IMG/VR virus record: IMGVR_UViG_3300044701_002545
Coordinates: 1-60,200 of that record
Source: a virus
Length of the DNA: 60,200 bases
Direction: 5' to 3' (one strand)
The stretch's first letter is position 1. Every line of letters starts with the position of its first letter. This document shows positions 3,479 through 4,926 of the stretch, piece by piece. Below the pieces are notes generated by a model, which worked only from the letters and a program-made list of their open reading frames with translations, made no database searches and was not told the origin of the DNA. The position numbers and the translations under genes are program-made.

Positions 3479-3721
3479 ATGGCACAAAAGTTTCTCTACA
3501 TTGTTGACCACTACATTCCTTTTCCTTCTAGTGAGTATGGTGGACTTTGGAATGTCATTGCAGAAGATGACAATGAATGTTTCGATTTGATTTCTGCTGA
3601 AGATGAAGGTAATTTCTATGAGCAGCACTATACTGCTCTTCGTGAAAACATTCTAAATGCAAGGACTTATGCTCTTGCTGAAGATGTAGAATCCTCTATT
3701 GTTGAATCTTTTACCACCTGA
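3479..3721 (+). CDS. Hypothetical protein, 80 aa
   Basis: A purine-rich AAAGGAG at 3456-3462 lies 16 bases before the ATG. The acidic product begins MAQKFLYIVDHYIPFPSSEY. It ends in TGATG with the next gene. No domain recognised. Confidence 0.7.
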   Translation: MAQKFLYIVDHYIPFPSSEYGGLWNVIAEDDNECFDLISAEDEGNFYEQHYTALRENILNARTYALAEDVESSIVESFTT

Positions 3722-3882
3722 TGATTGACACTTCTCTAAATCTCCTTGAGTTTAATCTCAAGGAACAGTATCAAGATCGTATCAACTATCTTCAGCAAAA
3801 GATTACGGAGCAACAACATGAAATCTTGCGACTCCAAGAACAAATCAAATATATGTCAAAAGACAGATTTTACGATTGCTGA
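3721..3882 (+). CDS. Small coiled-coil protein, 53 aa
   Basis: ATG overlaps the previous TGA. Residues 8-45 contain a leucine/isoleucine heptad series (LQQKITEQQHEILRLQEQI), a likely parallel coiled coil. The stop is followed by a late-like GATAAATA at 3881-3888 and the regulatory hairpin region of the GIY-YIG gene. Confidence 0.6.
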   Translation: MIDTSLNLLEFNLKEQYQDRINYLQQKITEQQHEILRLQEQIKYMSKDRFYDC

Positions 3883-3925
3883 TAAATAATGATGCTTGTT
3901 TGTGGTTATTCAAGCAAAGAGATTT

Positions 3926-3945
3926 GGGGCAGAAATGCCCCTTTT
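3926..3945 (+). terminator. Probable rho-independent terminator
   Basis: GGGGC and GCCCC form a 5-bp stem round a six-base loop, followed by TTTTCTT. It sits inside the longer inverted repeat. Confidence 0.65.
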
Positions 3946-3949
3946 CTTG

Positions 3950-3957
3950 TATAAATA
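3950..3957 (+). promoter_or_regulatory. Late promoter TATAAATA
   Basis: Exact match to the T4 late promoter core, 24 bases before the endonuclease ATG and just upstream of the right arm of the inverted repeat. Confidence 0.75.
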
Positions 3958-3980
3958 AGTATAACCACAAACAAAGCAGT

Positions 3981-4592
3981 ATGAATAACAAGTATTATAC
4001 TTACGCATATTTGCGTGAAGATGGAACACCTTATTACATAGGAAAGGGTAAAGGATATAGGGCTTATTATAAAAATAGAAGGAAGCAAATACAACCACCA
4101 AAAGATAGAAGAAGAATCATCTTTCTCAAACAAAATTTAACTGAAGAAGAAGCATTTAGACACGAAATCTATATGATTTCTGTATTTGGCAGAAAAGATT
4201 TAGGAACTGGTATTCTTCGTAATAGAACTGGTGGTGGAGAAGGAACAGCAAATATGATACTAAGTGAGGAACATAAGAAGTCCTTACTTGCGGGTAGATT
4301 AAATTATTCTTTTACTGACGAAGTGAAAGAAAAAATTAGAAATACTTTAAAAGAAAAAAATATCAAACCACCATCAAGAAAAGGTATAAACCATAACGAA
4401 CAATATTTTAATAAAAGATGTAAAAAGTTGTATGAAATTACAAGTCCAGACGGTAAAAAATATACTACAAATAGATTAAAAAACTTTTGTAAAATGAATA
4501 ATTTGAGTTGTGGTTGTATGTGTGAAGTTGCTAATGGAAAATATAAACAACATAAAGGGTGGACAGTTAAAATACTGGAACAAAAACCTTGA
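3981..4592 (+). CDS. GIY-YIG homing endonuclease
   Basis: A free-standing site-specific DNA endonuclease of 203 residues. The N-terminal GIY-YIG nuclease has YAY at residues 8-10, YIG at 19-21, the conserved Arg at 27, and a downstream Glu (RHEIYMISVFG) as expected for metal binding. The C-terminal 50 residues (YEITSPDGKKYTTNRLKNF onward) form a small DNA-binding repeat of the kind found after nuclease domains, similar to the tail of the HNH enzyme at 13815-14315. ATG 3981 is chosen; an in-frame extension to 3876 would run through the terminator. The gene has its own late promoter and hairpin. It is AT-rich compared with its neighbours, consistent with mobility. Confidence 0.9.
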   Translation: MNNKYYTYAYLREDGTPYYIGKGKGYRAYYKNRRKQIQPPKDRRRIIFLKQNLTEEEAFRHEIYMISVFGRKDLGTGILRNRTGGGEGTANMILSEEHKKSLLAGRLNYSFTDEVKEKIRNTLKEKNIKPPSRKGINHNEQYFNKRCKKLYEITSPDGKKYTTNRLKNFCKMNNLSCGCMCEVANGKYKQHKGWTVKILEQKP

Positions 4593-4611
4593 CTTCCTTT
4601 CGGTTTTTTGT
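4580..4611 (+). terminator. Possible terminator overlapping the end of the GIY-YIG gene
   Basis: ACAAAAACC and GGTTTTTTGT can pair with one bulge around a 13-base loop; the right arm contains a run of six T. Confidence 0.45.
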
Positions 4612-4638
4612 TATTATATCTTTGTTGAATAAAAAAAC

Positions 4639-4926
4639 TTGGAACTTCCATCTTCTTTCTTTCATTCTCCTCCAGACGGATATTATTATGAAGCAACTGA
4701 GTTCAAACGAAATGTTGTCAGTATTTGGTTATGTAATACTCGTAAGTTTGACTATAACAATGGTGCTCCTACAAGAACTATTCATTCCTTTTACAACACC
4801 AAAACCAGAGAATACTTCTCCCCAGTCAACAGTAAGACCATCGGTGCTTGTGTAAATATCAAGGAAACGCGGAACTATACCGCGATGCCAATTAAACAAT
4901 CTCCACTAGATGCGTTTTTTGTATGA
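4639..4926 (+). CDS. Conserved hypothetical protein without an ATG start
   Basis: A 95-residue frame with convincing protein composition (YYYEATEFKRNVVSIWLCN and later SKTIGACVNIKETRNYTA). The frame opens after a TAA at 4630-4632 and contains no ATG; the only plausible start is TTG at 4639. The gene lies 46 bases after the GIY-YIG endonuclease. Either TTG is used or the original start region was changed when the endonuclease gene arrived. The stop overlaps the next ATG. The family looks familiar from cyanophages but has no known role. Confidence 0.65.
   Translation: MELPSSFFHSPPDGYYYEATEFKRNVVSIWLCNTRKFDYNNGAPTRTIHSFYNTKTREYFSPVNSKTIGACVNIKETRNYTAMPIKQSPLDAFFV

Follow-up and report, generated by a model that had tools for sequence, protein, structure and literature searches.

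A putative antisense RNA module upstream of homing nuclease genes in cyanophages

In IS10/Tn10, the transposase is controlled by the small RNA RNA-OUT, which uses the loop of its hairpin to pair with the 5′ end of the transposase mRNA (RNA-IN) and is transcribed from the opposite strand of the DNA that also encodes this target. In the type I toxin-antitoxin pairs IstR/TisB and OhsC/ShoB, the small RNA and the gene for a membrane toxin are neighbouring, divergent and non-overlapping, the small RNA being complementary to about 20 nt of the leader. Outside T4, little is known about how over-expression of selfish phage nucleases is controlled and how several of them coexist in one genome. According to PMC2988022, the homing nuclease genes I-TevI, segB and mobE have translational hairpins in which a late promoter lies between the arms and read-through RNA shuts the start region. 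In the cyanophage S-PM2, CfrI is an opposite-strand antisense RNA of ~225 nt that overlaps psbA at its end and F-CphI at its start (PMC2984593, PMC12197685); among open-licence papers, it is the only small RNA control of a cyanophage homing nuclease that we found. None of the open-licence papers found describes the module presented here, which is probably undescribed.

The window, a 60,200-nucleotide stretch of the IMG/VR virus record IMGVR_UViG_3300044701_002545, had received an initial annotation that pointed to a 14-bp exact inverted repeat (3896–3909 and 3961–3974) around a terminator and the site TATAAATA at 3950, ahead of an ATG at 3981. All of these elements were confirmed at their positions, the arms being exact reverse complements and the terminator stem (GGGGCA, TGCCCC) being followed by TTTT. 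Absent from that annotation were the core of an upstream late-promoter-like site (P1, 3883–3888), a 5′ hairpin (3894–3915) and two extra base pairs past a bulge. We consider it likely, judging from sequence, folding and comparison, that positions 3881–3980 form a control module for the mobile cassette of a homing nuclease, in which an antisense small RNA from P1 would pair with the leader of the mRNA made from a second promoter, P2, and repress it in trans, while read-through RNA would be silenced in cis. The features are as follows.

3881–3888, + strand: P1, upstream late-promoter-like site GATAAATA, with core TAAATA at 3883–3888.
3894–3945, + strand: predicted small antisense RNA, ~52 nt long, driven by P1 and ended by the terminator, its start placed by T4 late-promoter spacing.
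3894–3915, + strand: 5′ hairpin of GCTTG (3894–3898) and CAAGC (3911–3915), with the left arm mostly in its loop (from fold and covariation).
3896–3909, + strand: left arm TTGTTTGTGGTTAT, the antisense sequence, exact reverse complement of 3961–3974.
3926–3948, + strand: intrinsic terminator GGGGCA (3926–3931)-GAAA-TGCCCC (3936–3941)-TTTTCTT (from sequence and fold).
3950–3957, + strand: P2, a late-promoter-like site for the nuclease mRNA with sequence TATAAATA, between the arms; predicted start at ~3963.
3961–3974, + strand: right arm ATAACCACAAACAA, reverse complement of the left arm and putative target within the 5′ leader of the mRNA from P2.
3974–3979, + strand: AAGCAG, a weak Shine-Dalgarno-like stretch (from sequence), partly covered when pairing passes the 1-nt bulge.
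3981–4592, + strand: free-standing GIY-YIG homing-endonuclease-like gene, 203 aa (from PHROG match and motif).

At T4 late promoters, RNA starts about six bases past the last A. This spacing would put the start from P1 at 3894, the base of the 5′ hairpin, and that from P2 at about 3963, inside the right arm. P1 is weaker than P2 by consensus, and its function as a promoter is putative; for cyanophages, the late motif has been published as NATAAATA (PMC2984593). The predicted RNA 3894–3945 folds at −18.8 kcal/mol (z −3.0), and an RNA with both arms at −36 (z −6.1). The predicted duplex of the right arm with the 5′ half of the small RNA reaches −21.1 kcal/mol, or −19.3 kcal/mol counted from the predicted start at 3963, and arm pairing gains 2 bp beyond a one-base bulge on top of the 14 bp. 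The earlier suggestion that read-through RNA would bury the leader while RNA begun at the late promoter would leave it open agrees with the predicted folds: the mean unpaired probability of 3964–3974 drops from 0.98 to 0.06 on pairing, with the same result for a left arm in cis or in trans. Positions 3975–3980 are only partly covered in read-through RNA (predicted unpaired 0.42 versus 0.84), and even the mRNA from P2 is predicted to have its AUG (3981) paired, which counts against the explanation that we favour.

In the mechanism that we propose, transcription from P1 would yield a short RNA (~3894–3945) ended by the terminator, whose 5′ hairpin would expose the left arm, mostly in its loop. 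P2 would drive the nuclease mRNA, the 5′ end of which would present the right arm beside a weak ribosome-binding site and the ATG. Pairing of the small RNA with this leader, over about 14 bp plus 2 bp across the bulge, would keep ribosomes from loading, and any RNA reading through from P1 or from genes further upstream would have both arms and fold shut on itself. We infer here where transcription starts, that the small RNA is a separate molecule and that repression results. If both promoters are late, they would give no clear timing for nuclease production, a point against this reading. Attenuation was ruled out, as the right arm lies 3′ of the terminator.

By analogy, IS10 RNA-OUT is the closest described system in mechanism. 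In both cases the DNA enzyme of a selfish element would be under a small RNA whose loop faces the 5′ end of the mRNA, a likeness borne out in the module by the predicted fold, the covariation of the stem and the predicted start; the module's RNA would differ in being a separate upstream unit on the same strand, an inverted copy of its target, and in acting on a homing nuclease rather than a transposase. The module shares with IstR/TisB and OhsC/ShoB a predicted small RNA beside the target gene and complementary to its leader, in pairs that differ in sequence, but its two units are in tandem and would guard a mobile nuclease. Like CfrI, it would be an antisense RNA touching a homing-nuclease gene in a T4-like cyanophage; place, strand and size are all unlike those of CfrI, and the S-PM2 stretch shows no such module.

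The initial annotation had proposed comparing the repeat in relatives carrying the gene. A protein search of IMG/VR yielded 80 nuclease loci, 75 of which had enough upstream sequence, and a late motif lies 26–44 bases 5′ of the ATG in 68 of these 75 protein-selected loci. Seventeen non-redundant loci, picked only by protein similarity and a late promoter after removal of near-copies, have differing arm sequences, yet the arms are complementary in 16 of them. Across the same 17 loci, an arm pairs over a mean of 9.7 bp with its own partner compared to 5.3 bp with swapped partners (permutation P ~1×10−5). The core TAAATA was found at equal spacing (followed by NNNNTG and then the hairpin base) in 14/14 non-redundant protein-selected type A loci, and a hairpin with a T run holds the terminator position in type A relatives. 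DNA pattern scans widened the set to 157 type A and ~37 type B elements. In cyanophage contigs, the same module stands 5′ of ~190 homing nucleases, which include several GIY-YIG types, HNH and further kinds, with ~90 arm sequence versions in which complementarity is kept. Four pattern-selected loci (L093, L104, L127 and L147) have a plain terminator and late promoter without arms.

RNAalifold on a MAFFT alignment returned no structure, as the arm registers shift, and for this reason we used swapped-partner tests. Over 50 elements, the stem of the 5′ hairpin covaries (5.65 for own compared to 4.00 for swapped partners, P = 5×10−5). The own arm was the best partner in 47 of the 50, with a duplex energy of −22.4 compared to −10.0 when swapped, although this energy test is biased in that its 50 representatives were chosen for having arms. 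Arms were not a selection criterion in the 17-locus test, in the scan of the phage S-SRM01 (see below) or in a set of 145 elements selected solely by two promoter cores and their spacing, and in this last set 144 have paired arms. Departures from Watson-Crick pairing in the promoter-geometry set comprise 23 G·U, one A·C and six others (binomial P = 3×10−6); a repeat kept at the DNA level would give G·T and A·C equally, so the pairing acts as RNA. Comparison of these sequences establishes the module and its conserved order, pairing at the level of RNA, covariation of hairpin and arms, and a link to homing nucleases.

The gene at 3981–4592 matches the PHROG homing endonuclease family phrog_314 (E = 2×10−10), its translation displays the motif YTYAY...YYIG, and neither Pfam nor NCBIfam gave a match at E 0.01. 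It is free-standing at a gene junction, without an intron setting. In many relatives the flanking genes are present without the nuclease; there, the upstream stop codon overlaps the start of the next gene (TGATGAAACT...) and no TAAATA is found, whereas the filled junction of the window contains P1, the RNA, the terminator, P2 and the nuclease. Since the empty sites lack P1, it travels with the nuclease. Such cassettes also occur at a neighbouring junction (L277 and L284). Empty and filled junctions agree with the GIY-YIG gene being mobile, homing itself being putative. A terminator-like hairpin, AACAAAAACC...GGTTTTTTGTT at 4579–4612, overlaps the nuclease stop codon. The gene 3′ of the nuclease (4639–4926) seems to start at TTG, while relatives with the empty site have ATG (MKL...); the insertion may have altered this start codon.

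The resemblance to the I-TevI expression switch, on which the initial annotation centred, stood in part. A timing switch acting only in cis, as in T4 I-TevI, segB or Aeh1 mobE, would have upstream RNA fold the leader shut so that only late P2 RNA is translated, with no separate small RNA. The late promoter between the arms, the late RNA without the left arm and the burial of the leader predicted for read-through RNA (unpaired 0.06 versus 0.98; fold z −6.1) all fit this explanation, such a switch is known for T4 homing nucleases (PMC2988022), and the pairing data taken alone may be compatible with it. What does not fit is that the cassette brings in a late-type promoter dedicated to the left arm and that a terminator precedes P2: an I-TevI-type switch requires the left arm only in upstream transcripts, whereas the P1 core is present in 14/14 type A loci and absent from empty sites, and the available part of PMC2988022 describes neither a separate promoter and terminator for the left arm nor a hairpin presenting it in a loop. 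RNA from P1 would also be late, defeating a pure early/late switch. Moreover, the arm-holding hairpin covaries even though it is incompatible with the long cis hairpin; a left arm in a loop that competes with the read-through hairpin is what one would anticipate of a free small RNA, not of a switch in cis only. Such a hairpin would not be worth keeping for a read-through role alone. A separate small RNA is the likelier carrier of the left arm, and we regard the explanation in cis only as rather unlikely.

A small RNA that exists but acts to protect or activate the nuclease mRNA, for instance by shielding its 5′ end from RNase E, is improbable: the predicted target at the extreme 5′ end is where pairing could block 5′-end-dependent decay, but the leader is predicted to be open already without the small RNA, and pairing covers the region needed by the ribosome. 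We give still less weight to the repeat acting as DNA, either as a nuclease operator or as an invertible promoter segment. The promoter is indeed flanked by the repeat, and I-TevI binds an operator over its own late promoter and represses it (PMC2988022); against this, the departures from a perfect repeat are strand-biased (23 G·U versus 1 A·C), the same arm precedes unrelated nucleases, and in all type A copies found the promoter points toward the nuclease. Among the window's exact inverted repeats with loops of up to 120 bases, that of the 14-bp arms is the longest, and second-order Markov simulations of the whole window gave a repeat of at least 14 bp in 6 of 60 runs. Taken alone in this window, the repeat is only mildly unusual, and this rate of about one in ten would suit an inverted repeat that arose by chance beside a terminator and late promoter of the ordinary kind. 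Its recurrence with changed sequence over ~190 loci speaks against chance, which the 17-locus swap test and the promoter-geometry set (144/145 paired) refute, making its probability negligible.

The sequence TATAAATA has a single copy in the window (3950–3957) compared to 5.6 expected; its scarcity across 60 kb may reflect avoidance of stray late promoters. A search of 3600–4800 against Rfam gave sub-threshold matches only, none at the gathering score, the best being a plant miRNA model on the wrong strand.

Returning to the proposed antisense module, 67 of 81 downstream proteins match phrog_314; the remainder include HNH, endonuclease VII-like and NUMOD3-only proteins, two matching phrog_5018 and a few without assignment. 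A single arm can precede unrelated nucleases, as does AATTGGTTCGCA, which stands before two GIY-YIG types and an HNH nuclease. At loci with at least two modules, 2 of 82 cross pairs exceed −18 kcal/mol in strength, and an arm sequence of its own would keep each of several cassettes in one phage largely independent. It is conceivable, if doubtful, that the arms are exchangeable address codes, shared or differing regardless of protein family, and that the RNA of a resident cassette silences an incoming nuclease with the same code and not one with a different code. If true, such codes would amount to RNA-based incompatibility or immunity among selfish nucleases, with occasional orphan RNAs (L195) lacking a nuclease. 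The ~90 natural loop/leader codes across cyanophage nuclease families make the mechanism testable, and the module offers a set of putatively orthogonal natural antisense pairs and a candidate RNA family to annotate.

The orphan unit (L195:3014–3100) consists of P1, hairpin, terminator and P2; it lacks both right arm and nuclease, stands ahead of a structural-type gene and is either a remnant or a solo antisense RNA. At L133 (strand −, 3516), L155 (strand −, 5940) and L187 (strand −, 6790), the RNA unit is intact and the nuclease frame is broken after a few codons, as in decayed cassettes.

The complete phage S-SRM01 has 97 ATAAATA late-promoter-like sites, seven of which have arms of at least 8, and 7/7 of these precede GIY-YIG or HNH type genes. 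In a 6-by-6 energy table of its arms scoring at least 9, the best partner of every predicted RNA is its own leader (−20.5 to −26.6), with cross pairs reaching −17.5 at most. Further named isolates with the module are B23 (two) and S-B68, and Sf-CH5 and S-B05 have the type B scaffold. The nucleases fetched from S-PM2, ACG-2014f, S-N03 and RN05-S have no module, indicating that not every cyanophage nuclease has one.

The type B scaffold, GTGGGCAGCAAC-arm-GTTGCGTAAGTCCCAC, is nearly invariant outside the arm (L203–L263), and its right arm lies near or touches the ATG. A recognisable upstream late promoter (P1) is often missing from type B, so that its antisense hairpin and loop may belong to the terminator at the 3′ end of the message upstream. 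That types A and B have different hairpins with the same apparent loop-to-leader logic strengthens the functional reading. Some type B copies, such as L011, have sigma-70-like boxes upstream.

In two cases the annotated nuclease start lies inside the module, 5′ of P2 (L001:2991, which is S-SRM01 51291, and S-SRM01 192466); start codons annotated 5′ of P2 in such genes are probably wrong. Three nuclease products are named 'translation initiation factor 2' (S-SRM01 62515, B23 41542 and Sf-CH5 156271). At L274:7978–9640 (S-SRM01 207378–209040), an endonuclease gene splits psbA, consistent with a mobile intron.
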